A DNA stretch of 27,261 nucleotides from a virus, in IMG/VR virus record IMGVR_UViG_3300042090_000958, positions 1 through 27,261 of that record. One strand, written 5' to 3'. The notes below the pieces were generated by a model that worked only from the letters and a program-made list of their open reading frames with translations, was not told the origin of the DNA and searched no databases. Numbering within the stretch: position 1 is the stretch's first letter; each line of letters begins with the position of its first letter. Below, one piece after another: positions 1-27,261 of this stretch. A program made the position numbers and the translations under genes.

Positions 1-1282
1 TCGGCTGCACGCTGCTCACGAACTGGACAAGGAAGTAGATATTTCGATCCGCTGCCAGAAAGGGCTGACTGCACAGGCTCACGCCGGTCACTGCCTGGAA
101 CGTCGGGGCGATTGTGCCCGTGAATACCACTGCGCAGTTCACCTGCTGCAGCGATGGCGTCGGGTTCGTTGTCTCCCACAGCACCAGCGCGTTGGCTGTC
201 TGATACGGCATGCAGGTAAGGCGCGCAATGGCATTCGCTGACGCTGTCGCCAGAGGCAGAACGCCAGTCACCAGATCGTTGATGGATGTATCGAATACGA
301 AGGCAAGCGCGTCGAACTGGAAGTTGTTCTCGACAACGGCCCCAATGAACACATGCGTGGTCGAAGCGGTGCCCATGGCACACGCGCACAGAGCAGTTAC
401 CGTAAGGCCGATCGGCAACGTCCCAGGGCTCGATGGCTGCCACGTTGTCGTGTTGATTGCCGTGACCACCAGGCTCGATCCCTGAGAGACCACTGCAACG
501 AGGCTAGTCCCGACGTGGCACACGTCATAGATGGCCTCATTCGTTCCCTGCGTAATGGCCGGAACGATCGTTGTGGCATAGGCGCTGGGAACAGCCTGCG
601 GGACGCTGGGGTTGATGAGCGCCACATATAGCTCGCCGCTTCTGGTGGTCGGATTGCTAGTGGACCCGTTCACGCCAACCAGGAAGACCGCGATAATGCT
701 GCCGACAACGATGCACTTCGGCGCATAGGACCCAATCGTCAGGTTCGACACATAGCTAGGCAGAACCGACCGGAACAGGTCCGCCGTTTGGTAGTAGACG
801 CTCTTGGACGCCTCATCGAGCACCTTGAGACCCACCGCGCCATTCAGCTCATAGGCAAAGACCGAAATCCCATTCAAGGAAGCCGTGTCTGAGTTGGTCG
901 CGCCCATGGCGCCAGAGTAGATCTGCGTCTCTGTCGGAAGGATGTTCGGGATGGGCCCGCGATTGACCCACTTATCTAGAGACGGCGGCAGCGTGTAGAA
1001 CTGCGACGGCCGACTATTGGGCACCGGTGCAGAGACAAGCCCAAGCTCATTATTGAACGAAACGAGCGACTGTCCATTGCGGACCACGCCACCGTATTCG
1101 GTACTTATCGCCGACGTGAGCGCGGTGTACCCGTTCCGCTTGTGCAGCTGCCCCAACGCACCCTTGTCAAACACCACGTTCTGCAGCTCGATAAACCTGT
1201 CGTTCCCCACGAGCACGGAGTTGTTCTCGAGATCAACCCCCGCCTGCAATGGGATGGAAACGACCTGTTTATCTAGGCCCAT
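1..1282 (-). CDS. Large tail/neck structural protein, 3' end cut off
   Basis: An open frame of 427 codons begins at ATG 1282-1280 and runs off the left edge without a stop. The start overlaps the stop of the upstream fiber gene by one base (TAATG), so the two are translationally coupled. The N-terminus reads MGLDKQVVSIPLQAGVDLE, followed by a segment on a first-strand 'ENVVF..GALGQLHKRNGY' pattern. From memory, this opening (IPL.AG.D....., then LENVVF and a KRNGY-type turn) is typical of large podoviral tail hub or DNA-stabilisation proteins that sit below the portal. The rest is rich in beta-prone, Val/Thr/Ser stretches and has no signal peptide. Position after the adaptor and fiber genes fits a tail component. 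The exact family is not certain. Confidence 0.75.
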   Translation of the reverse strand, partial: MGLDKQVVSIPLQAGVDLENNSVLVGNDRFIELQNVVFDKGALGQLHKRNGYTALTSAISTEYGGVVRNGQSLVSFNNELGLVSAPVPNSRPSQFYTLPPSLDKWVNRGPIPNILPTETQIYSGAMGATNSDTASLNGISVFAYELNGAVGLKVLDEASKSVYYQTADLFRSVLPSYVSNLTIGSYAPKCIVVGSIIAVFLVGVNGSTSNPTTRSGELYVALINPSVPQAVPSAYATTIVPAITQGTNEAIYDVCHVGTSLVAVVSQGSSLVVTAINTTTWQPSSPGTLPIGLTVTALCACAMGTASTTHVFIGAVVENNFQFDALAFVFDTSINDLVTGVLPLATASANAIARLTCMPYQTANALVLWETTNPTPSLQQVNCAVVFTGTIAPTFQAVTGVSLCSQPFLAADRNIYFLVQFVSSVQP

Positions 1283-2937
1283 TAGTACCCAACACAGATG
1301 TAGTTGATAATCGTAGGTGACGATCCTCCGTTCTGAACTGTGATCCCTGTCGTGGATGTAGAACACGTAGATACCCATGCGGTGTTGATCGTGTTGTCCA
1401 CAATCGAACAGTTGCAGATTGGCGCAACGGTAAAGTTTCGCGTCGAATCGCCTGAGCCTGAGAATGTGACCGTGTAGGACGTGTTCGCCGATGCCAGAGG
1501 AATGGATCCACCGCTAATCTTCGGGGACGCGGTAAACGAACTTCCTCCATCGAACGTGCTCAACGATGGCACCAACCCATTGCCGGTGTAAATCGGCAAT
1601 GTTCCGGCATCGAGTGAGCCAACAATGACCCCATTCGTCCAAATCGGCCCACCATCGACAATCAACGGCTCGCCGATGATCGTCTTATAAGCCGCTATGT
1701 CCGTCTGAAAGTGGGGCAGCAGGATGTTTACGCCGGTGTATTGCCCCGAAAGCTCGAGGGTCGATGCATTCATGTCGAATGCGTACATCTCCGAGCCAGC
1801 ATCGACAGCCTGCGCAATTAACTGTCCGTTGGCGTAAGTGAACAGATCGTTAAACTGCAGCCCATAGCCGGTTGTGATGGAAGTCGGTGTTGTGCCGGAA
1901 CCGCCCGTGACATTCCAAACCGTTTTCCCGCCATCGTCCGTGTAATACTGAACGTTAGCCCCCGAATAGATGTTGTTCACGGTGATGTCGGGGAGGTTTG
2001 CCAAAACAGGCACCTGAATCGTTGCGAAATCGCCAGCGTCCGCGATGAATGTCCCTAGGTACGGATTGGACAGCCCACCCGATGGCCAGCTCGTGATGCA
2101 GCCGTTGCCGCTGATGCAATACTTAGCAGCGTATGCCTCTGCACCAGCATCCACGACAGCCGCCGCGAGCTCGCCTGTCGTCTGTAGTTTGAAGATGCCT
2201 GACGGAGTGGCTTTCAGAACGATATCGCCGCTCACGTCCTCATAGACAGACGACGTGTTGGTGATATCTAGCCCCACCTGGGCCCCCGAAACGACCATGA
2301 TCCCGGCGTCGAACTGCGTCTCCGGGCAGTACATCACGCCGCCCGAGTAGTAGCAGCCTCCCGCACCAGGCCAGCTCGTCAGGCATGTTCCATTGAGGCA
2401 ATACTGCGCAGCGTTGGACACGCCAAAGAATCCTGCGTCGACGACTTCCGTCTGCGCATAGCCCAGATTCGTCGACGTCGAATAGCACCACCAATAGGCG
2501 CCCTGATGTGGATTGCCGCTCGGAAACGCGTACAGCACACAGTCGAAATTAGGGGAATTGATGCCCAGGTCAGAGTAACCAAAATTAAGCGTCCCGCTGC
2601 TAGACGCTTCCATGATCATTCCATAGCCACCGTCAGGCCAATAGCCACCGGCGTCCCACATCGCTGCGGTGTTGTTGCCCAGGAAGATGTACGGATAGGA
2701 CGAGACTGCGTAAAGCCCGTAGCTATCGATCTCCGACGCCAGCGGCGCACCAGCATCGAACGGGAACGGGAAGAAGAAGTTGGCGCCAGGAAACGACGTG
2801 CTGCCGTTGATCTCGAGCTGCTGATTCTCGGGGTTGATGTTCTGCGTCACCACCTGCCCGAAATAGCCAGAGTCAGCGCTGATCCCGGGGAATCCCTGGC
2901 CAGCCGTCAAAGCTGCAATGAGTGCGAAGGCATGCAT
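1282..2937 (-). CDS. Tail-fiber-like protein with hydrophobic leader and DAG motifs
   Basis: A 551-residue protein. The frame is open upstream to 3072, but ATG 2937 is chosen because TGAGGA lies just before it and it follows the stop of the upstream gene by a few bases; the longer form would overlap that gene by more than 100 bases. The N-terminus (MHAFALIAALTAGQGFPG) is a short hydrophobic leader without a basic n-region. Eight Asp-Ala-Gly and four Asp-Gly-Gly motifs are spread along the chain. Two related modules contain YCLNGTCLTSWPG and YCISGNGCITSWPS. The C-terminal about 60 residues (FTVAPICNC to NYICVGY) resemble the beta-rich terminal knob of many phage fiber proteins. It lies between the head-tail genes and a large tail gene. 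Likely an adhesin or receptor-binding protein; host receptor unknown. Confidence 0.7.
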   Translation of the reverse strand: MHAFALIAALTAGQGFPGISADSGYFGQVVTQNINPENQQLEINGSTSFPGANFFFPFPFDAGAPLASEIDSYGLYAVSSYPYIFLGNNTAAMWDAGGYWPDGGYGMIMEASSSGTLNFGYSDLGINSPNFDCVLYAFPSGNPHQGAYWWCYSTSTNLGYAQTEVVDAGFFGVSNAAQYCLNGTCLTSWPGAGGCYYSGGVMYCPETQFDAGIMVVSGAQVGLDITNTSSVYEDVSGDIVLKATPSGIFKLQTTGELAAAVVDAGAEAYAAKYCISGNGCITSWPSGGLSNPYLGTFIADAGDFATIQVPVLANLPDITVNNIYSGANVQYYTDDGGKTVWNVTGGSGTTPTSITTGYGLQFNDLFTYANGQLIAQAVDAGSEMYAFDMNASTLELSGQYTGVNILLPHFQTDIAAYKTIIGEPLIVDGGPIWTNGVIVGSLDAGTLPIYTGNGLVPSLSTFDGGSSFTASPKISGGSIPLASANTSYTVTFSGSGDSTRNFTVAPICNCSIVDNTINTAWVSTCSTSTTGITVQNGGSSPTIINYICVGY

Positions 2938-2944
2938 TGATTCC

Positions 2945-3268
2945 TCAGGGGGAGATGGGGCCGAAAGCCTTCCATGTGCCGGGGGATCCTGCCGTGGTGC
3001 ATACCCAGCCAACGATCCCGCCGGGGATGGGGTTGGAATTCCACACGATGGCTCCGAGTGCGTAGGGTCCACCTGTCGTTGGAAATGTCACATTCACAGT
3101 GAAGCTCGGCCCTGGCGGCGGATTGTTGGCGGAATAGACCAGCGAATCGATCAGCTCGAGATTCACGGCTTCGATGTACGGATAAGTGCCCGGGGTCGTG
3201 TTGTTCGTGGCTCCCGGCGTTGTCCCACCGACCGGAATCGTCAGCCCAAGATTTGGAGTCGTGGCCAT
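2945..3268 (-). CDS. Small structural protein, probable fiber or tail accessory
   Basis: A 107-residue protein starting at ATG 3268, one base after the stop of the upstream gene. The N-terminal half is Pro/Gly/Thr rich (LGLTIPVGGTTPGATNN). The C-terminal part (GGIVGWVCTTAGSPGTWKAF) matches a short pattern, GW-[VI]-C-x-T-x-G-x-P-G-x-W-K, that recurs at the ends of phage tail or fiber proteins. No signal peptide or membrane segment is visible. It sits between the adaptor group and the fiber gene, so a role in attaching or trimming the fiber is plausible, but this is inferred from position. Confidence 0.65.
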   Translation of the reverse strand: MATTPNLGLTIPVGGTTPGATNNTTPGTYPYIEAVNLELIDSLVYSANNPPPGPSFTVNVTFPTTGGPYALGAIVWNSNPIPGGIVGWVCTTAGSPGTWKAFGPISP

Positions 3269-4585: not shown

Positions 4586-4849
4586 CTACTCCTCGGGCTC
4601 TTCGTCTTCCTCACCACCCTCGTGCGGCCCCTCTTCGTGCGGCGCGCCATCGCAGATAGTGAAAGCGTCGTGGAACGCCTTCGCCATCGCCATGTGGTCC
4701 TTGGCGTCGTAAGCGTCGCACCAGTCGGCCATGGCATCCTCGAGCCCAGGCGGCACGCCATCGCCATCAGGCGCAGCGTCGCCGCCCATATCGTCTTCCT
4801 TCTTTTTCTTGGCCAGAATCAGGAGCAGCGGGTTTTTCTTAGGTTCCAT
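4586..4849 (-). CDS. Small acidic protein
   Basis: An 87-residue protein with AAGGAG before ATG 4849. It starts with a basic stretch (LILAKKKKEDD) and becomes strongly acidic, ending in a run rich in Glu and Asp (GGEEDEEPEE). A central helical segment contains MADWCDAYDAKDHMAMAKAF. Acidic small proteins in this position, between capsid-associated genes and the adaptor, can be capsid accessory or internal proteins. No family is recognised. Confidence 0.65.
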   Translation of the reverse strand: MEPKKNPLLLILAKKKKEDDMGGDAAPDGDGVPPGLEDAMADWCDAYDAKDHMAMAKAFHDAFTICDGAPHEEGPHEGGEEDEEPEE

Positions 4850-4858
4850 TAGTGCTCC

Positions 4859-5335
4859 TTACGGGATAGCCGAGAACGAAGGCTGATAGAGAACCTGCGT
4901 GTTGTCGTTGCTGGCCAGCAGCGACCAGTGGATGAACGAGCCCTGATTCGTCGGGCTGCCTGGCTGCGTGATGTCGGCCAGCGCATTCGTCTCGGTGTTC
5001 CAAACGTTGATAACGAACGTGTTGCCCGTGACTGCCCCGATGGTCGATGCCAGCGTCAGCGTCGACGCAGCCGGGTCAATCTGCAGACACGTGCGCAGGC
5101 TATTAATTTTGGCGATCGTTCCGGCCTTCCCGAAGTTACCAATCAGCGTGACGAGGAAGATCCCAGTGCCAGTGCGAGACACTGTCCAGCGAGACGATCC
5201 AACAGTCGCAGCCGTCGGAGTGCCAGAGCCAGCCGGCTTAATAGCCCCACCATACAGGCCCATTTGATTCTCATTCCCCTGCACAGGGAACGGGTATGAG
5301 TTGATGATCCCATTGTAGTAATTGGCCAGAGCCAT
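4859..5335 (-). CDS. Beta-rich capsid-associated protein, paralogue of the next gene upstream
   Basis: A 158-residue protein, ATG 5335, with GGAG eight bases ahead. It contains WTVSRTGTGIFLVTLIGNFG, which parallels VTSVTRTGTGAFTVTLANQF in the gene just upstream. Both are then followed by a short strand, a GAVTG or GANVTG turn, and an N-x-x-T-x-A-x-A-D-I motif. The two genes therefore look like an ancient tandem duplication. Their place right after the capsid gene suggests decoration or head-fiber proteins. This is inference from order; no enzymatic motif is visible. Confidence 0.65.
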   Translation of the reverse strand: MALANYYNGIINSYPFPVQGNENQMGLYGGAIKPAGSGTPTAATVGSSRWTVSRTGTGIFLVTLIGNFGKAGTIAKINSLRTCLQIDPAASTLTLASTIGAVTGNTFVINVWNTETNALADITQPGSPTNQGSFIHWSLLASNDNTQVLYQPSFSAIP

Positions 5336-8370: not shown

Positions 8371-8512
8371 TTTGGGTGTCCTTCTTTTTTTTCTTCTTCC
8401 TTGAATTGTGCAGCGCTATCGCAATCGATTGCTTTTGCCCGTAGCCTGACTGCATGAGCTCCCGGATATTGTTGGATATGACAGCGCGGCTCTTACCCGG
8501 AGCTAATGGCAT
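8363..8512 (-). CDS. Small basic phage protein between portal and scaffold
   Basis: A 49-residue protein found by hand translation. ATG 8512-8510 overlaps the portal stop (TGATG) and its TGA at 8365-8363 overlaps the scaffold start by eight bases, so it fills the gap exactly. It starts MPLAPGKSRAVISNN and continues with an ELMQSG turn and a QKQSIAIAL helix, then a run of six lysines. From memory, the pattern MPL..GKS..VIS.NI.EL...G...KQA.AIAL is a very common small phage protein near portal genes; its function is not known. The run of eight A residues encoding the lysines is noted separately. Confidence 0.85.
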   Translation of the reverse strand: MPLAPGKSRAVISNNIRELMQSGYGQKQSIAIALHNSRKKKKKKDTQNA

Positions 8513-10434
8513 CACGCACCCTTGGGCTGTTGGAACGGCATCAGGTTGCTGACGGGCGGCGGCGCGCCTTTCGCCATAACCGGCGCAGGAGCTCCCGGTC
8601 CCGGGGGTGGAACTGCCGGCATCGGTGGCGGAGGCGGCTTAGCGCGGACCAGCCAATTGCGAAGCAGATCGATGCGCTCGGGAGGCGCGTCTTGGACAAT
8701 CGCACGGTTCAGCTCTTTCGTTACGGTATCGACACAAGCCGGAAGGTTCGCAGCGCCATCGACAGGCATCGGCTTGCCCTCATGAAGCATCTGATAGACC
8801 AGCCAATCGGCGTAATCCTGGAACGCGTTCTCACGTTCCATCGTCGCGTCCAGGTCCGGGAACTGGAGCAGCTTCTTCCCATCCTGCGGGGAAATCAGCT
8901 GCGCCTGCATCATCTCCTGAACAGCCGCCAAGCGCCCTGACGGTGTGCGCGGCAAAGACGACACAGGGTAGGCCTTCAGCGTGTACTCATCGGACTCAAG
9001 CCGGATGTCCCGCCAATCAAGCTCTTTGACGAAGTTCTTACCCGTTACTTTGATGACGTATGACTTGTTGCCCCATACACGGCTGCCGCACGATACAATT
9101 CGCTTAGCAAGTTCCACGTGGAACTGCCCCCACTTCTCAGAGAGGACTGCGAAGCGGTTCTGCTGAATGTCGGCGTATTCGCGCTGGGCTGCACCACTAT
9201 CGAGCCCCTGCGGTTTGTTGCCGGACGACATGAACGTCGAGACACCGCAGAACTGGTGCGCCGATTCAATGATCCACTCCTTGTAGGCTACGAAGTTGGG
9301 ATGCGTCGCTGACCAGTTCAGAACCTGGATCGCCTGGTCCGCTGGCAGCATCCCCTCGAGGATGAGCCCCGACTTGCTTGACGTGGCGTGGTTCTTGTTC
9401 AGCTTCGCCGCGATGTTCATATACAGGCGCGGCAGACCGAACTGACTCCAGGCGTGAGCTTCTGCGTACTCTACGCGTGCCAGCGTCGTCTGATGGCCGT
9501 AAAGCAGCTCTCCAAGGCCACGGCCATAGTAACCAGTGGTCTTGTCTTCATATCTAATCACCGCGAACGGGAAGTCGTCATCGTCAAAGTCTTCGTCGAC
9601 TAGCGTCACGCTATCGATGGCCAGAACGTGCCGCCCGTCGCCTGCGTCTTTGTAGCTGGGAAGCCGCCACGCCTCGTAGTAGGGGATTTGTCGTGACGCA
9701 TAGAGATCGGACATGAAGCCCGTGGTGTTCAGGGCCGACGCATCCATGATCTCTTTCTTCTTGTTCGGGAAGCGCGCCGCGAGCATGTCCTTGTCGACGA
9801 GATCGATCTGGTACAGGCAGCGCGGCTTCTCGTCGCGGCCGTCATACATGTCCGTCCAGATGTTCCCGGGCCACACGTTATCGACGATGATGTTCTTATC
9901 GTTCGGGTTCGCCGAGACCTTGATGAAGCCGGTTCCGAACACCAGCGCGTCCTGTAGAGCTCGCGTAGAAGCTGACGGCACATCGCACTGATAGAAGATG
10001 CCATCGATGAACTGGTTCAGCAGCTGCGCCTTGTGCTGCAGCTCAAACGTGCCCTTGTTCGTCAGGAACGTTACGGCAGGTGAGCCAGGGGCCAGAAGCA
10101 TGGCCTTGACGGTCGAGACCAGCTCATAGACCAGATTGTAGCTAGGCCCTTTGCGTGAGCCCATCCCCATCGTGCCGGAACCGATGCCGTTCGTGATGGT
10201 TCCGCTGCCCGCCATGATGTTCGGCGCGTACCTGCCGCCGCTCATGAAGTTCGAGCCTTCAAACAGCTGCTGACAGCGGTAGTTTCGCGTCGTGACGCCA
10301 AGCTGCAGCTGCTGAATGCTCCGAGCAGCTGCTACAACCTGGTCGCCAACGTCGCGATCGTTGGCCTGCCACCATAGCGCCGGGACTTTATCCTGCTTTA
10401 CAGGCCGATAGCGTTTCGCGAAGCCGGTGCCCAT
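8512..10434 (-). CDS. Portal protein
   Basis: A 640-residue protein with GGAGTAATT before ATG 10434. The N-terminus contains WWQANDRDVGDQVVAAARSI. Central parts include YYEAWRLPSYKD and the stem-to-wing-like segment VIRYEDKTTGYYGRGLGELL, then a long helical part with REYADIQQNRFAVLSEKWGQ, as in podoviral portals. The last about 40 residues are Pro-rich (AKPPPPPMPAVPPPGPGAP). Order terminase, portal, small gene, scaffold, capsid is the standard head module. The portal is the dodecameric ring at one capsid vertex through which DNA is packaged. It is longer than many portals because of the Pro-rich tail. Confidence 0.85.
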   Translation of the reverse strand: MGTGFAKRYRPVKQDKVPALWWQANDRDVGDQVVAAARSIQQLQLGVTTRNYRCQQLFEGSNFMSGGRYAPNIMAGSGTITNGIGSGTMGMGSRKGPSYNLVYELVSTVKAMLLAPGSPAVTFLTNKGTFELQHKAQLLNQFIDGIFYQCDVPSASTRALQDALVFGTGFIKVSANPNDKNIIVDNVWPGNIWTDMYDGRDEKPRCLYQIDLVDKDMLAARFPNKKKEIMDASALNTTGFMSDLYASRQIPYYEAWRLPSYKDAGDGRHVLAIDSVTLVDEDFDDDDFPFAVIRYEDKTTGYYGRGLGELLYGHQTTLARVEYAEAHAWSQFGLPRLYMNIAAKLNKNHATSSKSGLILEGMLPADQAIQVLNWSATHPNFVAYKEWIIESAHQFCGVSTFMSSGNKPQGLDSGAAQREYADIQQNRFAVLSEKWGQFHVELAKRIVSCGSRVWGNKSYVIKVTGKNFVKELDWRDIRLESDEYTLKAYPVSSLPRTPSGRLAAVQEMMQAQLISPQDGKKLLQFPDLDATMERENAFQDYADWLVYQMLHEGKPMPVDGAANLPACVDTVTKELNRAIVQDAPPERIDLLRNWLVRAKPPPPPMPAVPPPGPGAPAPVMAKGAPPPVSNLMPFQQPKGA

Positions 10435-11130: not shown

Positions 11131-12567
11131 CTATTCCGGCCAGTCGAGCAGTTCGGGCGCTTCGGGATTTAGAAACTCTTCCTCGTCGAGCTCTTCCTGA
11201 GTCTGGAATTGCTTCACCGTTCGCTGCCACCGCTCTTCGTCTTCAACAGCAAGCCGTTCCGGGACACTAAGCGGAGGTGGCTCGGGCGTGTGCAGGAAAC
11301 TATAGACATGACTGAATCCATAGACGAACGCATCCGCATAATCGCATGGATCCGCTTTGTTCTCGATTTGTGTGGCTTCATCGAAGCGCACCATTTGCAA
11401 TTGATCCCGCAGGGCGCCTGTAGCGTCGCTTTTAAGAGCAATTCGATTGAGTCGGAACTGATCATTGATGATCCTCACCATGCCAGCCTTATAGCCAGGC
11501 GTTTTGGTTTTCCCGATCGCAGGAATGCGCCAGCGGTTCTGAAGCTCTTTCAGGTACCCAGCGCCTAGAGCTCCGTCATCCATGATGACAGTCAGCTCTG
11601 GAATGGTCCGATAGTATTTGTCTACGTTCTGACAGAATCCAGTCACGTCACGCCCGGGCAGGCCTTCCGCATTCACCACGTAGCAGGTGGGCGTCTGCAT
11701 CGACCAGGCAATCAGCACAAACGCGGACAAATCTCTGGTTGCGCCAACATCCGCGCCGAGAGTGTACCTCCATGAGAAACCAGTTGGTAAGGATTGCACT
11801 TCGTTCTTGATGACCTGGAACCCTTCGAATAAGAGGCTTCGGTTGTCTTTTGTCCATTCCCCACACCATTCTGAGATGAATTCGGGTTCGGAGCCATTCC
11901 AACCATGTTGAGCTTTGACTGCCTTGATGAAGTCATCTTTATTCGCCCAGCCAGGATTGTCCGCCCAGCTCCAGCGAGTAGTGCTCCACCCGAGCTGGGA
12001 GTCCCGTTTCGTCACGTCAAAGAAGAAGCCGTTGCAGATTGTATCCGGAGTGCCGCAAAGCGCCAATGTGCCGCCGTGTCGGAACAGGCACGCATCGAGG
12101 ACCTTCTCCAAAAGATATTTCAGAATCTCGGGCCGGAAGCCTTGTGCCTCGTCAATGATGATCAGCCGGCAGATCAAGCCACGAAAGCGATCCGCATCTT
12201 CTTGGTCTTGCGCCCCTGAGATGTACAGCACACTACCGTTTTCAAACGTCAGGCTCTGTTCGTTCTGATTGGCCTTTACTTTGATGTCAAAGCGGTTGAA
12301 GAACTGCCGGAACCGCTGCCAGATGACAGCTTTCGCCTGTTTCAGCGTGCGATTGATGTACACGCAGTTGCTATTCGGTGCCGACAGACACAGGTGAGTG
12401 AGATACGCGATGGCCGCTTCGGTCTTGCCCGCCTGCCGAGTGCACAACGCCGCTTTGAACTTGCTTTTGTCTTGTATGAACTGAAGCTGTGGCGGGCTCA
12501 GGCCATCGAATACGTTTTTGCCCTGATTGGCGTGCAGGATGCGTAGAAGGTCTTCTACCGTTGCCAT
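11131..12567 (-). CDS. terL: Terminase large subunit
   Basis: A 478-residue protein. The ATPase half has a Walker A motif TRQAGKT at residues 43-49 and a Walker B LIIIDEAQ at about 135-142, followed by the coupling segment ALCGTPDTICNG. The nuclease half has the RNase-H-like acidic triad: D273 in GADVGATRDLSAF, D330/D331 in VIMDDGALG, and D409/D412 in DPCDYADAF. This fits the motor that translocates DNA into the prohead and cuts it at the end of packaging. It overlaps the upstream gene by 13 bases and precedes the portal module, the usual order. Length is normal for the family. Confidence 0.92.
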   Translation of the reverse strand: MATVEDLLRILHANQGKNVFDGLSPPQLQFIQDKSKFKAALCTRQAGKTEAAIAYLTHLCLSAPNSNCVYINRTLKQAKAVIWQRFRQFFNRFDIKVKANQNEQSLTFENGSVLYISGAQDQEDADRFRGLICRLIIIDEAQGFRPEILKYLLEKVLDACLFRHGGTLALCGTPDTICNGFFFDVTKRDSQLGWSTTRWSWADNPGWANKDDFIKAVKAQHGWNGSEPEFISEWCGEWTKDNRSLLFEGFQVIKNEVQSLPTGFSWRYTLGADVGATRDLSAFVLIAWSMQTPTCYVVNAEGLPGRDVTGFCQNVDKYYRTIPELTVIMDDGALGAGYLKELQNRWRIPAIGKTKTPGYKAGMVRIINDQFRLNRIALKSDATGALRDQLQMVRFDEATQIENKADPCDYADAFVYGFSHVYSFLHTPEPPPLSVPERLAVEDEERWQRTVKQFQTQEELDEEEFLNPEAPELLDWPE

Positions 12568-21029: not shown

Positions 21030-23210
21030 ATGGCCAATAAAAAACGGTACGAATTAACGGAAGAACATCGTTCGCAATTTGAACCGTGGGCAAGGCGCTG
21101 GATCGCCAATGCAATGAACACGAAGCCGCTCACGGCTGACGAGAAGCAGCGAGTTCACGCGGCAATCAAGGGGCTATACGAGGCGGCTGGCCTGAAGCCA
21201 CCGCCGGACGAGCGGATCATTTTCGTCCCGTCGCCAGCCGTGGCCAGGTTCGCAGGCGGATTCGCTGCCTGGGTTTGGTACACGAGGAAGCATGGAGTGG
21301 ACGCCGCTACGTACGCCGCTACGGCCGCCGCTACGGTCGACGCTACGGTCGCCGCTACGGCCGACGCTACGGACGCCGCTACGGCCGCCGCTACGGCCGA
21401 CGCTACGTACGACGCTACGGTCGCCGCTACGGCCGACGCTACGTACGACGCTACGTACGCCGCTACGAACGCCGCTACGCGCGCCGCTACGGACGCCGCT
21501 ACGAACGCCGCTACGCGCGCCGCTACGAACGACGCTACGCGCGCCGCTACGGTCGCCGCTACGGACGCCGCTACGAACGACGCTACGCGCGCCGCTACGG
21601 TCGCCGCTACGTACGCCGCTACGTACGACGCTACGGTCGCCGCTACGGTCGCCGCTACGCGCGCCGCTACGTACGCCGCTACGAACGCCGCTACGCGCGC
21701 CGCTACGGCCGCCGCTACGGCCGACGCTACGTACGCCGCTACGGTCGACGCTACGGTCGCCGCTACGCGCGCCGCTACGGACGCCGCTACGTACGCCGCT
21801 ACGTACGCCGCTACGGTCGCCGCTACGGCCGCCGCTACGAACGCCGCTACGGTCGACGCTACGGTCGCCGCTACGGCCGCCGCTACGGTCGACGCTACGG
21901 TCGCCGCTACGTACGCCGCTACGCGCGCCGCTACGGACGACGCTACGCGCGCCGCTACGGCCGACGCTACGGCCGACGCTACGTACGCCGCTACGGACGC
22001 CGCTACGCGCGACGCTACATACGCCGCTACGTACGCCGCTACGAACGCCGCTACGCGCGCCGCTACGGCCGACGCTACGCACGACGCTACGGCCGCCGCT
22101 ACGCGTGCCGCTACGGACGCCGCTACGGCCGCCGCTACGGCCGCCGCTACGGCCGACGCTACGTACGCCGCTACGAACGCCGCTACGGACGACGCTACGG
22201 TCGCCGCTACGTACGCCGCTACGTACGCCGCTACGTACGACGCTACGCGCGCCGCTACGGCCGCCGCTACGGACGACGCTACGCACGCCGCTACGAACGA
22301 CGCTACGCGCGCCGCTACGGTCGCCGCTACGGACGCCGCTACGCGCGACGCTACGGCCGCCGCTACGTACGCCGCTACGGACGCCGCTACGGACGCCGCT
22401 ACGCGCGACGCTACGGTCGACGCTACGGACGCCGCTAGCGGCACCCGCGATCTTTCCCGCTGGTACGTGATCGATGATCTTGTTCCATTGTCTGAGAAGT
22501 TCGGCGGAAAACAGGCTCTTGAATGCGCCTACCTTGCCTATCGGATGTGGAACGGCGGAAACCAGTGGTCGGCGTGGCCCGCGTTCCTGTCGTTCTTCAG
22601 GCATGTGGCAAAGCTCGCTCTGGACTACAGCAAGTGGGATCACTATGAGGTCGCGGCAATCGCTGGCCATCGCGTGATGCACCCGGATTTTTGTTTGGTT
22701 TCGGACAGGCCCGAGATCCTTACCGTGGACTCCGAGAACCGACCGCACGGGGAAAACGGCCCGTTCTGTAGGTGGCGCGATGGCTTCGCATTGTATTCCT
22801 GGCACGGAAATAGGATCCCCGCCTGGATGATTGAGCACAAGGAACGGATCACTCCGGAGCTAATCGACGCAGAGAATAATACTGAGATCCGGCGCGCCAT
22901 GACTGAGATCTACGGCGAGGCCCGCTACATGCAGGATTCTGGGGCTGAGATCATTCACCGTGATGAGTTCGGCGAGCTGATGCGAAAGGAGATCCCTGGG
23001 GACGAGCCACTCGTGATGGTGCGCGTGAAAAACTCAACGCAGGAGCCTGACGGGAGCTTCAAGACGTATTTCTTGCCCGTGCACCCGGAATTGCGGCCGC
23101 TGTTGCCAGGCGGGGAGCTGGGCGAGCCTCAGGAACTGACGGCAAAGGCGGCAGTCGCCTCGACGTTTGGTTTGCGCGCCGAGGAGTATGACCCGGTGAT
23201 TGAGACATGA
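21030..23210 (+). CDS. Giant tetrapeptide-repeat protein with DUF6745-like C-terminus
   Basis: A 726-residue protein in three parts. Residues 1-91 are a folded N-terminal part (RYELTEEHRSQFEPWARRWI, ending FAAWVWYTRKHG). Residues 92-470 are 94 perfect [Ala/Asp]-Ala-Thr-X tetrapeptides plus a final AAS. Residues 471-726 (LSRWYVIDDLVPLSEKFGGK, then the run EILTVDSENRPHGENGPFCR and WRDGFALYSWHGNRIPAWMI) resemble, from memory, the DUF6745 family, whose members can also carry Ala-rich repeats. No signal peptide. No clear ribosome site, so it is probably translated by coupling from the gene three bases upstream. Function unknown. Confidence 0.7.
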   Translation: MANKKRYELTEEHRSQFEPWARRWIANAMNTKPLTADEKQRVHAAIKGLYEAAGLKPPPDERIIFVPSPAVARFAGGFAAWVWYTRKHGVDAATYAATAAATVDATVAATADATDAATAAATADATYDATVAATADATYDATYAATNAATRAATDAATNAATRAATNDATRAATVAATDAATNDATRAATVAATYAATYDATVAATVAATRAATYAATNAATRAATAAATADATYAATVDATVAATRAATDAATYAATYAATVAATAAATNAATVDATVAATAAATVDATVAATYAATRAATDDATRAATADATADATYAATDAATRDATYAATYAATNAATRAATADATHDATAAATRAATDAATAAATAAATADATYAATNAATDDATVAATYAATYAATYDATRAATAAATDDATHAATNDATRAATVAATDAATRDATAAATYAATDAATDAATRDATVDATDAASGTRDLSRWYVIDDLVPLSEKFGGKQALECAYLAYRMWNGGNQWSAWPAFLSFFRHVAKLALDYSKWDHYEVAAIAGHRVMHPDFCLVSDRPEILTVDSENRPHGENGPFCRWRDGFALYSWHGNRIPAWMIEHKERITPELIDAENNTEIRRAMTEIYGEARYMQDSGAEIIHRDEFGELMRKEIPGDEPLVMVRVKNSTQEPDGSFKTYFLPVHPELRPLLPGGELGEPQELTAKAAVASTFGLRAEEYDPVIET
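21303..22439 (+). repeat. 94-unit 12-bp coding tandem repeat (GMCGCTACGNNC)
   Basis: Each unit is G[C/A]C GCT ACG NNC, in perfect 12-base phase over about 1.1 kb. Codons 2 and 3 are almost invariant: one ACA near 22018 and a final AGC are the only changes seen. Codon 1 is Ala or Asp. Codon 4 always ends in C (one CGT excepted) and encodes only Tyr, Ala, Val, Asp, Asn, Arg or His. As a result five of six reading frames stay open; the sixth has TAG in every unit. Confidence 0.95.
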
Positions 23211-23320
23211 TGAGCGCCCCAAGCGCATGGCAGATCGCCCTCGGGAAGGCTGCGGCGTCGAGGACCCCAGATGAATTCCGAGACGTGCTGCTTTCTATTG
23301 CGAGAAGCGCTAAGCAGTAG
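23207..23320 (+). CDS. 37-residue protein ending the rightward operon
   Basis: Found by hand. ATG 23207 overlaps the stop of the repeat-protein gene (ATGA), with a second in-frame ATG directly after. The protein begins MMSAPSAWQIALGKAAASRT and ends in a helix (DEFRDVLLSIARSAKQ). Its stop overlaps the convergent leftward gene by 11 bases. It is short, but coupling and codon pattern support it. Confidence 0.6.
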   Translation: MMSAPSAWQIALGKAAASRTPDEFRDVLLSIARSAKQ

Positions 23321-23702
23321 CCGGAGGCACGATCACGCAAAGCACCTTGTGCTGGGCGATGATCTCCCTCACCCGCCTAGAGCAGACGATGCACCCATCT
23401 GACGCGGTGTGATTCTGCTGTGGGTTGTCGCCGTGGCAATAGAAATCACCCCTGCCCCACATCTCATTGGTCGGATCTGGCGTGAGCGGAATCGAAAACT
23501 CACCCGTCGACTGTAGTCGGTCTTCCGGCGTCCCGATCATATACATGCCCGGGGGAAGCGGCCCCTCACCGTGCTGGTCGATGGCGTCAGGATTGTTCAT
23601 CCACACGCCGTGACCAGCGTAGCCAGTGCCCAGGGTCAGCGTCTCGCCTGTGTCATCGTCTATCGAGCTGATCTTGCCTGTGGGGATCTCGTAGACGATC
23701 AT
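23310..23702 (-). CDS. Tlde1/DUF2778-type cell-wall enzyme, probable endolysin
   Basis: A 130-residue protein from ATG 23702, chosen for AGGAGG seven bases ahead; the frame to 23732 is open. It follows the DUF2778 (Tlde1) pattern: Y-x-x-x-TGK at the start, GYAGHGVWMNNPDAIDQHGE, GPLPPGMYMIG, PLTPDP, GRGDFYCHGDNPQQNHTASD and the catalytic SDGCIVCSRR (Cys with the upstream His). Known Tlde1 proteins are L,D-carboxypeptidase/transpeptidase-fold enzymes acting on peptidoglycan stem peptides, described as type VI secretion effectors. Here no signal peptide is present and a single-TM protein lies two genes upstream, so a phage lysis role is likely. Confidence 0.75.
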   Translation of the reverse strand: MIVYEIPTGKISSIDDDTGETLTLGTGYAGHGVWMNNPDAIDQHGEGPLPPGMYMIGTPEDRLQSTGEFSIPLTPDPTNEMWGRGDFYCHGDNPQQNHTASDGCIVCSRRVREIIAQHKVLCVIVPPATA

Positions 23703-23838
23703 CGATTGCCTCCTGAAGAATGCGGCGTGCACTGATGGGACTGGCTTCCGGCTTCCCCTTTTGCCTTTCGTCCTTGTAGCCCTTGCAGAACAGGCAGCCG
23801 TTGCGTTGGTGCTTGGGGCGTCGGCGCTTGAAGTTCAT
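23653..23838 (-). CDS. Small basic CxxC protein
   Basis: A 61-residue protein, ATG 23838, coupled to the upstream stop by ATGA with GGAGGGATGAGGA ahead. It is very basic (FKRRRPKHQRNGCLFCKGYK) and has one Cys pair. From memory this resembles short bacterial and phage proteins with the pattern RRRPK...GC..CK..K. Its end overlaps the enzyme gene by 50 bases, so the C-terminus (RDPHRQDQLDRR) may not be essential. Function unknown. Confidence 0.55.
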   Translation of the reverse strand: MNFKRRRPKHQRNGCLFCKGYKDERQKGKPEASPISARRILQEAIDDRLRDPHRQDQLDRR

Positions 23839-24134
23839 TCCTCATCCCTCCGGCGCCGAGCCTCAAACTCCTCCGGGCTGAGCGGACGCATCCCGGAACG
23901 TGACTGTGGTGAGCGCTGCACCACCTGCGTTGGGGCGTCCAGGATCCCATTCCGTAGCATGGCGTCGCGCATGTCATTAACCACGCTCTCAATGTGGTCG
24001 AACCGCCGGTGCATCCCGACCACGCTCTTCTGCTGGACGGCGTTATGGACCAGCCAGCCAACGAATCCCACCGCAGCGGGAACCAGGATCAGGCCAACGG
24101 CTTCGACGATGAGGAGGGCGCTCTCGGTGGTCAT
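23835..24134 (-). CDS. Single-TM coiled-coil protein, candidate holin or spanin
   Basis: A 99-residue protein, ATG 24134, coupled by ATGA with AGGGG ahead. Residues about 6-28 (ALLIVEAVGLILVPAAVGFV) form one transmembrane helix, followed by a helical, partly coiled-coil domain (RRFDHIESVVNDMRDAMLRN) and an acidic-basic tail. One N-terminal helix plus a coiled coil, just upstream of a cell-wall enzyme, fits a class III-like holin or an inner-membrane spanin. The family is not identified, so this is a position-based call. Confidence 0.6.
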   Translation of the reverse strand: MTTESALLIVEAVGLILVPAAVGFVGWLVHNAVQQKSVVGMHRRFDHIESVVNDMRDAMLRNGILDAPTQVVQRSPQSRSGMRPLSPEEFEARRRRDEE

Positions 24135-24352
24135 GCTAGCCCCTGGTCATTTTCGTGATCCCTCATCAGGGAGAACATCATGTCGCTCAAGTGCAGCTCG
24201 TCCCGTCCCTGATCGGCACACATCCGCACCCCGACGGTAAACAGCAGAGCAGCGGCGGACTTCTCGTCCCCACCAGTAAGTTTCAGCGCTGATTGGATCA
24301 GCTCCGTTACCCGTCGGCAGTATTCCAGCTCCCGTTCCGTTAGAGTGTTCAT
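24131..24352 (-). CDS. Hypothetical small helical protein
   Basis: A 73-residue protein, ATG 24352, ending in ATGA with the next gene. It is helical (NTLTERELEYCRRVTELIQS, then SAAALLFTVGVRMCADQGRD). An overlapping frame starts at GTG 24359 with a better-spaced AGGAGG, but its product looks compositionally random and does not couple to the next gene, so the ATG frame is preferred. Confidence 0.6.
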   Translation of the reverse strand: MNTLTERELEYCRRVTELIQSALKLTGGDEKSAAALLFTVGVRMCADQGRDELHLSDMMFSLMRDHENDQGLA

Positions 24353-24367
24353 TAGCCACGGCGCCTC

Positions 24368-24673
24368 CTACCGAGCTGGGGTGAGGTCGATGTAGTAGTA
24401 ACCGCCGAGGGTAGGGGCAGGCCCGAAACTGGCCGGGAGGCTGATCTTGAACTGAATCGTCCCCTGATTCGTGACTGCCTGGTAGGCCGCATCCTGAGAT
24501 GCTTGGCTCTGACGCAACGTAACCACGTAGCTAACGCTGGAACCGGCATCGCCGATCCCGTAGCTCGAGATCGTCTCGACGTTCACGCATTGATAGATAA
24601 GCGCGTGAGGGTTAACGCCACCGTCGCCGATGGTTCCAAGTGCCAAGTATGCTGCCAAAACGAGAGCGTGCAT
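24368..24673 (-). CDS. Small secreted-type or virion protein with leader
   Basis: A 101-residue protein with AGGAGG six bases before ATG 24673. It starts MHALVLAAYLALGTIGDGG, a short hydrophobic leader closely like that of the fiber gene at 2937 (MHAFALIAALTAGQG). A YGIGDAGSSV motif contains the Asp-Ala-Gly signature. The remainder is beta-rich (VSYVVTLRQ, then GGYYYIDLTPAR). It lies next to the Cys-rich repeat gene. A virion-surface or exported role is likely; exact function unknown. Confidence 0.65.
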   Translation of the reverse strand: MHALVLAAYLALGTIGDGGVNPHALIYQCVNVETISSYGIGDAGSSVSYVVTLRQSQASQDAAYQAVTNQGTIQFKISLPASFGPAPTLGGYYYIDLTPAR

Positions 24674-24682
24674 TGTGTCCTC

Positions 24683-26200
24683 CTAGCAGCAAGAGCCGCT
24701 ACAACAGTTTGTGAATCCAATCGTCGTACAATTGTTGCCACACGAGCCGCAGTTGTAGGGGTCGGTGTTGCTGTCTGAGCATGTCGCGTTGCAGCACTGA
24801 TTGTCTTCGTAGTTCGAGCAAGGGTTGTCGCACTCGCCGCAGTTGAAGACGTCGGTGTTCCCGTTCACGCAAGAGCCAGAGCAGCAAAGGTCATCGCCCT
24901 CGTTGTAACAGTTGTTTCCGCAACCGCCGCAGTTGGTGGGACTGCTGGATGTATCGGTGCACTCGCCACCGCAGCATGGCTCACTGGTGCAGAATGTTCC
25001 GCAACCGCCGCAGTTATCTGGGTCCGTGTTGGTGTTTGAGCAGCTCCAGTAACTACCAAAATAGCAGCACGCGTTATCGCCTTCGCTCAAGCAGTCATTT
25101 CCACAACCACCGCAGTTTGCAATCGTATTGGCGCACTGCCCATCACCGTCGACTACGCAGCAATAAGGGGTTTGCGCCTCATAGGGACACGAGTAGCCAC
25201 AAGACCCGCAGTTGTTCGGGTCCATTGATGTATCGATGCATTCCTCGCCAGAGCAAACGGTGACCGGCGGGTAAGGCCCGCAACACATGCCGTAAAGACA
25301 CGCCCACTCCCCCGAGCCGCAGTTGTAACCGCACGTCCCGCAGTTGTTGGGGTCTTGCTCGGTGTTGGTGCAAGTCCCGTTGCAACATGTGTTGGTGTTG
25401 CAGATGTTGCTGCAAGTCCCGCAGTTGTTGTCGTCAGTGAGCTGATCGACGCAGCTACCCCCGCAGCAGATCTCCTGTGCGATGGCACCTGCGTCATCCG
25501 TGATTTCGGGACAGACGTTTCCGCATCCGCCACAGTTGTCGTTGTCGTACTGCGTATTGACGCAATTGCCGTAACCGCCCGCGTCGTAGCAGTAGGTCGG
25601 TGCGCCCGTCGCAGAACAGCACTGGCCATTGACGCAACCGTCTTGGTATCCGCTGCAGTAGATACCGCATCCACCGCAGTTGTAGTTATTGGTAAGGCTA
25701 TTCGAGCATCCGCTGCTGGGGCAGCATTGATTCTGCTGACCCCCATCGTAATATCCTGCGTCAAAGCAGTTGCTGCCACACGTCAGGCAGTTGAGCGGGT
25801 CGGTGGCCGTGTTGGTGCAGTCACCAGCGCAACACGTCGCGCCACCGCCAGCATCGCAGAAGACCCCGCATCCCCCGCAATTGTTCGTATCGGTCGCGGT
25901 GTTGATGCACATGAAATCAAAGCCGCAACGACCGTTTGGGCATTCGGTGAAGTAGGTGTCGCCGCCATCGTAGGACACCCACCCGCAGTCACTGAACCCC
26001 GCGTCGCACTCGCAATCGTTTGCGGTGCAACTTGCCCCGAAGTCGCAAGCCACACCGCATCCAGCGCAGTTGTCGGATGTGTTCAGCGGGACGCACCCGC
26101 TCGTCGGAGTGCACTGGTAGCTACCCTCGGGGCAGCACATGCTAGCCTGCTGCGAGATGTAGCCTGGTGGCCCGATGGCCAATAGCAGAGCAAGGATCAT
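24683..26200 (-). CDS. Cys-rich NCGGCG repeat protein with signal-like leader
   Basis: A 505-residue protein, coupled to the upstream stop by ATGA. After a hydrophobic leader (MILALLLAIGPPGYISQQAS) it holds 13 repeats on the pattern C-C-x-G-x-C-x(n)-D-x-x-N-C-G-x-C-G-x-x-C, with about 90 Cys (near 18%). Unit spacing is 30-45 residues. Between units are five Asp-Ala-Gly motifs. Such repeats are well known in exported proteins of Myxococcota and relatives. So many Cys would need an oxidising place outside the cytoplasm or the mature virion surface to pair. It sits in a block of other leader-bearing genes. Role unknown: host-surface mimic, adhesin or coat component are options. Confidence 0.8.
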   Translation of the reverse strand: MILALLLAIGPPGYISQQASMCCPEGSYQCTPTSGCVPLNTSDNCAGCGVACDFGASCTANDCECDAGFSDCGWVSYDGGDTYFTECPNGRCGFDFMCINTATDTNNCGGCGVFCDAGGGATCCAGDCTNTATDPLNCLTCGSNCFDAGYYDGGQQNQCCPSSGCSNSLTNNYNCGGCGIYCSGYQDGCVNGQCCSATGAPTYCYDAGGYGNCVNTQYDNDNCGGCGNVCPEITDDAGAIAQEICCGGSCVDQLTDDNNCGTCSNICNTNTCCNGTCTNTEQDPNNCGTCGYNCGSGEWACLYGMCCGPYPPVTVCSGEECIDTSMDPNNCGSCGYSCPYEAQTPYCCVVDGDGQCANTIANCGGCGNDCLSEGDNACCYFGSYWSCSNTNTDPDNCGGCGTFCTSEPCCGGECTDTSSSPTNCGGCGNNCYNEGDDLCCSGSCVNGNTDVFNCGECDNPCSNYEDNQCCNATCSDSNTDPYNCGSCGNNCTTIGFTNCCSGSCC

Positions 26201-26697
26201 CGAATCCCGTTGGAAGGCGTGCCGGCGTCAGGTGAATTTTGCTCCTGACCTGGCGTAGCAACGCACCAGACTTTGGTTCCGGCGCCCCATTGCACGCATT
26301 GATTGCTGGGAAGCATCGTGCCGACATTCGTGCCGGCATCGATGGCGAACTGACCGCTAAGGGCCGGCGTCTGCCCATACCAGATGGGGTTGCTGCCATT
26401 GTTGCAGAACTGCGCCGAGGAATAGCCGCTAATACACCCGATCTGCGTCCCATAGCCCTGGCATAGCGTCATGCAGCTCGAGCCGGCATCCTGGCCGTTT
26501 TCGACGTATACCGGCAGAGTGCCGCCGCTATTGCCGCCGTCACCATTGCCGATCTGGGATGACAGAATCAGCCGCCCATACTGGTCCACCGCAACGGGTA
26601 CGTTGTTGCCGGCGTCGACCTGGCCAACCATCAGGTTCGGAGGTGAATTGTTCCAGGGGTTAGTGGCTAGCAGCCAGGCCGCGACGAGCTTCCACAT
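26197..26697 (-). CDS. DAG-motif protein with hydrophobic leader
   Basis: A 166-residue protein. ATG 26697 follows the upstream stop (26700) directly; the longer frame to 26898 lies inside that gene and reads as a shadow. The start, MWKLVAAWLLATNPWNNSPP, is hydrophobic and signal-like. Four Asp-Ala-Gly motifs occur (QVDAGNNV, GQDAGSSC, AIDAGTNV, SPDAGTPS), along with six cysteines and beta-prone stretches (VAVDQYGRLILSSQ). It shares leader type and motif with its neighbours and with the fiber gene. A virion or exported surface protein is likely. Confidence 0.65.
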   Translation of the reverse strand: MWKLVAAWLLATNPWNNSPPNLMVGQVDAGNNVPVAVDQYGRLILSSQIGNGDGGNSGGTLPVYVENGQDAGSSCMTLCQGYGTQIGCISGYSSAQFCNNGSNPIWYGQTPALSGQFAIDAGTNVGTMLPSNQCVQWGAGTKVWCVATPGQEQNSPDAGTPSNGIR

Positions 26698-26699
26698 GG

Positions 26700-27023
26700 C
26701 TATTGCCCAACACGCGCTTTGATGAAGCTGACTTGCCCGGTGCCAGTCGATGCCAAAGCGTGCACCACAAGGCCGGGGGCGAGCCGGATGGGCTGGTGCG
26801 GGAAGGTGGATGTCACCGGGATCAGAGCGTTGGCGCTGGTCGCAGCGGCACCGGTGTTGATGTAAGCCGGCTCGCCAGCCACAACAAAATACCACCATGA
26901 GCTCTGATCCGTCATTTGCCCGGAATTGCCCTGAGCCGGGATGGTCCCGCTGGCATCCGTGCCGGACGTGGCAATCACTACAGTCGTGGTGAAATCAGGC
27001 GTGAACAGTGAAAGCGAAGCCAT
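26700..27023 (-). CDS. Beta-rich structural protein, tandem paralogue
   Basis: A 107-residue protein with TAGGAG before ATG 27023. It is beta-rich: SLFTPDFTTTVVIATSGTDA, then QMTDQSSWWYFVVAGEPAYI and LAPGLVVHALASTGTGQVSF, ending IKARVGQ. The partial gene just upstream has the same DQSSWWY, PG.VVHAL and RARVGQ segments, so the two are paralogues. No leader and no enzymatic motif. A virion subunit is likely; not recognised. Confidence 0.65.
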   Translation of the reverse strand: MASLSLFTPDFTTTVVIATSGTDASGTIPAQGNSGQMTDQSSWWYFVVAGEPAYINTGAAATSANALIPVTSTFPHQPIRLAPGLVVHALASTGTGQVSFIKARVGQ

Positions 27024-27032
27024 TGTTGTCTC

Positions 27033-27261
27033 CTATTGCCCAACCCGGGCACGAACCAAAGAAACCTGACCCTGTACCGAAGTCCCCAGGGCATGGACAA
27101 CCGTTCCCGGGACTATCCTTACCGGAAGCGAAAGCATACCCTGGGGGATTAGAGCGCAGCTGCCGTCATTGAGCGCTGCACTGTTGTAATTGATAAAGGT
27201 CGCACCGCCGGCAATGACGATGTACCACCAGGATGATTGGTCAATCATGGCGCCGGAATTG
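27033..27261 (-). CDS. Beta-rich structural protein, 5' end cut off
   Basis: The last 75 codons of a gene that enters from the right edge. An internal ATG at 27248 is not the true start: the codons before it (NSGA) align with NSGQ in the paralogue before MTDQSSWW. Here the sequence is NSGAMIDQSSWWYIVIAGGA, then VRIVPGTVVHAL and VSLVRARVGQ. It ends at TAG 27035-27033, which is part of the next gene's ribosome site. Confidence 0.65.
   Translation of the reverse strand, partial: NSGAMIDQSSWWYIVIAGGATFINYNSAALNDGSCALIPQGMLSLPVRIVPGTVVHALGTSVQGQVSLVRARVGQ

Follow-up and report, generated by a model that had tools for sequence, protein, structure and literature searches.

A phage-resident cysteine-rich repeat protein encoded in a late gene module

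Why does a phage encode a cysteine-rich repeat protein of a type typical of exported bacterial proteins? The question arose from a sequence-only reading of the window, a DNA stretch of 27,261 nucleotides that is the whole of IMG/VR record IMGVR_UViG_3300042090_000958. In that reading the gene was considered unusual for a phage, possibly captured from its host, and a strong clue to the identity of that host. The analyses described here favour the view that the 505-aa product is a surface protein resident in the phage, its gene being part of the late module for virion assembly.

The cysteine-rich gene and its place in the phage genome

The gene runs from 24683 to 26200; these boundaries had been given exactly, and the strand, which had not been named, is minus. 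The protein contains 91 Cys (18.0%), a single Arg, and no Lys or His. The Cys content of the other proteins of the phage is 0–3.6%. The pattern NCxxC-x(1-3)-C was found 13 times, at residues 44, 107, 137, 174, 222, 259, 286, 330, 362, 396, 423, 453, and 483. The counts of about 18% Cys and 13 units thus agreed with the original description, but the regularity ascribed to the units did not, as the unit-to-unit spacing ranged from 27 to 63 residues (mostly 27–37). The DNA of the 13 units was also diverged, with a mean identity of 67% across 27-base cores. The units are therefore no fresh tandem duplication. When the protein was compared with Pfam, it matched PF04885 (Stig1) with an E of 1.7e-37 and 128.2 bits (gathering cut-off, 24.1 bits), five stretches being over the threshold. 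This score and the low Cys content of the other phage proteins rule out a chance pattern. Its score for the NCBIfam family NF041328 (MXAN_6577-like Cys-rich protein) was 89.2 bits (E 2.3e-25), below the curated cut-off of 100.

A second record, IMGVR_UViG_3300014658_000106 (36,739 bases), was found to represent the same phage at 99.99–100% identity. It carries an identical copy of the gene, which makes an assembly error unlikely. The two ends of this record share a 10-base overlap, and the window reads across the join, indicating a circular map of ~36.73 kb with complete gene content; the window covers three quarters of the ~36.7-kb map. Searches of IMG/VR with the terminase, portal, 107-aa, and 551-aa proteins returned the second record alone as a close relative. 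Nothing was found among 50,697 phage records with the capsid, portal, and tail proteins, searched by tblastn, or with the 166-aa protein.

The genes of the phage include a terminase large subunit (11131..12567, minus), a P22/SU10-type portal protein (8512..10434, minus), a helicase, a VapE-type helicase/primase, and a RecT protein. Judged from these genes, the phage is tailed and probably podovirus-like. The late order begins with the terminase, the portal, a scaffold-like protein (362 aa), a protein with a weak major-head match (474 aa), small virion-type proteins, and proteins of 320, 117, and 107 aa. It continues with proteins of 551, 1417, 610, 563, 956, 109, 107, 166, 505, 101, 73, 99, 61, and 140 aa, the last being a Tlde1 protein. 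By inspection, the 1417-aa protein is nozzle-like. Connector-like genes lie between that for the presumed capsid and the 551-aa gene. The 505-aa gene stands after the genes of three large late proteins, for which an internal or ejection role is probable, and ahead of the lysis genes. On the circular map it therefore occupies a tail or fibre position in the late module. Its ATG overlaps the stop of the upstream 166-aa gene (ATGA).

Several other genes of this region may be described here. Close to the end of the 610-aa protein (L006 9602-11434, minus), which is rich in Q/N and A, there is a Peptidase_S74 (endosialidase chaperone) domain; such domains usually occur at the ends of fibres or spikes. 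The second 107-aa protein of the late order (26700..27023, minus) is 52% identical to the product of the 109-aa gene next upstream, also on the minus strand, which leaves the window at 27261 and is complete in L006 at 4712-5041. These neighbouring paralogues have a DQSSWWY motif in common and belong to no known family. Between the 101-aa gene and the lysis genes lies a 73-aa gene (24131..24352, minus). It is followed by the gene of a 99-aa protein (23835..24134, minus), which has a single hydrophobic segment at its N-terminus and is holin-like in its location, and by that of the Tlde1-domain (PF10908) protein (23310..23732, minus), a presumed murein-active lysis protein. The latter is the sole clear lysis candidate, its domain being known from peptidoglycan-acting bacterial effectors. 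Beside the RecT-like protein, one of the few plus-strand genes (21030-23210) encodes a DUF6745 protein of 726 aa, which contains an internal series of AAT/DAAT-like repeats.

Hydrophobic leaders and a shared D[AG]G motif

The 505-aa protein begins with the stretch MILALLLAIGPPGYISQQA (26144..26200, minus). Among the 37 genes examined, this N-terminus was the most hydrophobic (mean hydropathy 3.48 over 8 residues), in agreement with the leader noticed originally. However, this leader, MILALLLAIGPP, is only ~9 residues long and has neither a basic n-region, nor a lipobox, nor a good signal-peptidase site. Hence, the term leader is apt, while a signal peptide is at most putative.

Four late proteins start at Met with such a short leader. 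The 551-aa fibre-like protein of the tail block (1282..2937, minus; start placed at an inner ATG of the listed ORF 1282..3072) begins with MHAFALIAALTAG, has 2.2% Cys and 12 D[AG]G motifs, and found no family in family-profile searches. The other three are encoded consecutively. The 166-aa protein (26197..26697, minus), whose stop overlaps the start of the 505-aa gene, has the leader MWKLVAAWLLATNP, 6 Cys, and 5 D[AG]G. Directly downstream of the 505-aa gene is the 101-aa gene (24368..24673, minus), which has a strong Shine-Dalgarno sequence and whose product has the leader MHALVLAAYLALG and 2 D[AG]G. The leaders of the set are ~9–13 residues long, and three of the four contain no basic residue, which makes them atypical as Sec signals. 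Two further genes, of 99 aa and 100 aa, have equally hydrophobic N-termini, so hydrophobicity by itself cannot define the set.

The D[AG]G motif separates the four proteins from the rest. They contain 26 such motifs, where shuffling of each sequence gave an expectation of 2.4; in the remaining 33 proteins, 9 were counted and 8.9 expected. The test was post hoc, the motif having been noticed by eye, but the contrast is large. Since the codons encoding the motif vary, it is a motif of the protein, and a DNA-level repeat is ruled out. Nor is DAG a signature of Myxococcota, as it was not enriched in cellular homologues of the 505-aa protein (48 seen, 64 expected).

The leader might drive export of the 505-aa protein through Sec, followed by oxidation in the periplasm and display on or in the host envelope late in infection. 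There the protein, which would then be no part of the virion, could block superinfection or stiffen or weaken the envelope. The strength of the hydrophobic N-terminus, the two adjacent leader genes, and the closeness of the lysis genes are consistent with such a route. Many cellular homologues also look like exported lipoproteins, and ~45 disulphides per chain are, from general knowledge, hard to make in a reducing cytoplasm. Against it stand the shortness of the leaders, the rarity of basic residues in them, and the features missing from the 505-aa leader. Moreover, a leader is not a mark of non-virion proteins, because the 551-aa protein of the tail block has a similar one. We regard export to the envelope as the main rival reading, less likely than a virion role.

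Cellular and phage relatives, and the origin of the gene

A multi-unit profile was searched against 84,980 genomes (one per species), giving 211 confirmed stretches. By title, the best 80 of the 211 were mostly from Myxococcales, Myxococcaceae, Polyangiaceae, Sandaracinaceae, or Deltaproteobacteria; single cases among these 80 were from Omnitrophica (the top match), Acidobacteria, Thermomicrobiales, Eremiobacterota, and Pedosphaera. Phylum samples were then compared for PF04885 at E<=1e-7. In Myxococcota, 12 of 94 genomes not known beforehand were positive (14/96 with two known ones). The corresponding figures were 0/98 for Acidobacteriota (1/99 counting the chosen centre genome), 0/100 for Chloroflexota (1/101 counting the centre genome), and 0/96 for Verrucomicrobiota, which is the weakest control, its centre genome also being unmatched at this strict threshold. 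A lipobox-like motif was present near the start in 54 of 90 cellular homologues. The sequence-only reading was thus borne out, for the repeat family as a whole, in linking the repeat to proteins that Myxococcota typically export. For NF041328, two Myxococcota proteins scored 697 and 1754, one phage protein (L009) 219, and the 505-aa protein 89. Expressed per unit, these scores correspond to 33–76 bits in the two Myxococcota proteins, ~5 in the L009 protein, and ~7 in the 505-aa protein.

In deposited phages the gene is indeed unusual. A BLAST search against 50,697 deposited phage genomes gave no match, although the low-complexity filter may have masked part of the Cys-rich query; a PHROG search with the protein gave no family, and nothing on such Cys-rich repeat proteins in phages was found in the literature. 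When IMG/VR was searched with the multi-unit profile, 22 further records with Stig1-repeat proteins appeared, and one more was found by a separate search. The largest of these proteins has 2654 aa and 455 Cys. No match to the other genes of our phage was found in the records with giant Cys-rich proteins. Second halves of the type CC-x(2-4)-C made up 115 of 155 units (74%) in 12 distinct phage proteins (duplicates removed), which belong to a small number of phage groups and so represent fewer independent cases than appears. The same type accounted for 43 of 839 units (5%) in 90 cellular proteins, and for 8 of 13 (62%) in the 505-aa protein.

The surroundings of the phage relatives differ. In one group (L022 and L030), the Stig1 gene adjoins genes for a collagen-like tail fibre and a tail collar, and the C-terminal domain of its product is common to neighbouring genes, both of which argue for a tail part. 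Around the gene of the L009 group, no clear structural character is seen in the neighbours. Where the start was complete, the Stig1 proteins examined from large phages had no such leader as the 505-aa protein. In a separate observation, giant Cys-rich genes in L009 (10708-15984), L018 (10543-14990), and L125 were seen by inspection to have PHP-domain DNA polymerase-like and SpoVR/YeaH-type neighbours, which is odd company for a phage gene.

The sequence-only reading had proposed that a host surface-protein gene was taken up. A recent capture from Myxococcota, with the gene carried as cargo, would fit the enrichment of the family in that phylum, the NCBI name derived from MXAN_6577, and the fact that the top-scoring single homologues are Myxococcota proteins. 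However, the codon log-odds of the gene was 0.084, within 1.2 SD of the value expected for the phage (0.107 +/- 0.019). Its GC3 of 0.71 lies inside the phage range (0.61–0.80), whereas the median for cellular homologues is 0.86. Such composition suggests long residence in this phage or in compositionally similar ones. The gene also lacks the features of a recent host-derived moron, there being no codon deviation and only ~32–49% identity in the multi-unit matches. Moreover, the units are of the phage CC type, there is no lipobox, the NCBIfam cut-off is not reached, the D[AG]G motif is common to other proteins of the phage, and the start overlaps the stop of the preceding gene inside the late block. 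Recent capture is thus largely refuted and appears improbable, while an ancient bacterial origin is possible.

The gene did not serve as the strong host clue it was taken for. The GC3 of the other phages with such repeats is 0.15–0.49, and they are therefore unlikely to infect high-GC Myxococcota. Assignment of the host through the terminase was also rejected, as the matches (2 of 379 Myxococcota and 5 of 396 Acidobacteriota genomes) were all weak and favoured neither phylum. A host search with the DUF6745 protein matched 1 of 149 Acidobacteriota genomes. Stig1/MXAN_6577-type repeats should accordingly be treated with caution, being no proof of a Myxococcota host.

Structure, probable role and comparison with known systems

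Residues 405-505 (101 aa) were modelled by AlphaFold2 with 27 related segments aligned. The best model reached a pLDDT of 84, the other four being poor (55–64), and short hairpins recur along the modelled stretch. Foldseek searches of PDB and BFVD returned no fold like the repeat, and PHROG, family, and fold searches found neither an anchor domain nor a match to a known virion protein. A reduced cytoplasmic protein for metal binding or redox buffering, metallothionein- or zinc-finger-like, is very improbable: the protein is CxxC-rich and a PDB profile search returned mainly zinc-finger proteins, but these matches were weak spacing artefacts (the best had an E of 1e-3, and for single domains E was above 0.3), the cellular homologues appear to be exported to where Cys pair up, Lys, Arg, and His are almost absent, and a hydrophobic leader is present.

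Our best estimate, with a rough probability of 0.5, is that the 505-aa protein serves the virion as an accessory adhesin or fibre protein. Of the coat on virion or host suggested in the sequence-only reading, it may be said that the gene context favours a role in the virion or at a surface. We infer that it forms disulphides, enters the virion, and takes part in adhesion. Each unit of ~30 residues, with about six Cys (NC-x2-C-x3-C ... CC-x2/4-C), would probably close into a small disulphide-locked module, and 13 such modules in a row would form a stiff, acidic, protease-resistant rod. The rod would work with the 551-aa, 166-aa, and 101-aa proteins of the leader and D[AG]G set, and would bind the host surface or hold the podovirus-like particle there. 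The adhesin or fibre role is argued for by the location of the gene, after those of the large late proteins and before the lysis genes (by analogy, the fibre slot of T7-like phages), by membership of the four-protein leader and D[AG]G set, by the tail neighbourhoods in L022 and L030 together with CC-type units and phage codon use, and by the fairly confident best model of the 101-aa stretch. It is weakened by the leader, which, if working, would export the protein from the cytoplasm, where tailed virions assemble. Further points against it are the leaderless Stig1 proteins of large phages, the want of an anchor domain or virion-protein match, and the want of relatives of the phage in collections. 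In a further reading, part of the outer appendages would be made outside the cytoplasm: the four leader proteins, led by the Cys rod, would be exported, gain disulphides in the host periplasm, and join finished particles only at lysis. Such a route, which would amount to two-compartment virion assembly for a tailed phage, seems quite doubtful.

Stig1/MXAN_6577-type repeats were already known from secreted proteins of bacteria and plants. What is new is a phage-resident sub-type in several unrelated environmental phages, not found in the 50,697 deposited phage genomes or in PHROGs, and a set of four late proteins, one of them a presumed fibre, joined by leader and D[AG]G. If the proteins are virion rods, phage adhesins would here be made of an uncommon material, and the place where a tailed phage forms ~45 disulphides per chain becomes a question.

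The protein may finally be set beside known systems. In T7-like phages the tail fibre gene (gp17) lies between internal-core and lysis genes, and the 505-aa gene holds an equal relative position in the late order. The likeness is one of position alone, as gp17 has no sequence similarity to the 505-aa protein; kinship with the T7 group was not found, the terminase matches being distant and mixed and the portal P22/SU10-like. Plant STIG1, a stigma-specific protein, is a small secreted protein of one domain. The 505-aa protein scores well above the gathering score of this family of plant proteins and bacterial repeats, but has 13 short units. With the MXAN_6577-like Myxococcota proteins of NF041328 it has the NCGxCG repeat in common, and differs from them in the missing lipobox, the mostly CC-type units, and the phage codon use. 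The giant IMG/VR proteins (L009, L016, L019, L021, L022) are about 1000–2650 aa long, have no N-terminal leader and a low GC3, and those of the L022 group have T-rich linkers and a common C-terminal domain, all unlike the 505-aa protein. Like it, however, they are built of Stig1 repeats that are mostly of the CC type.
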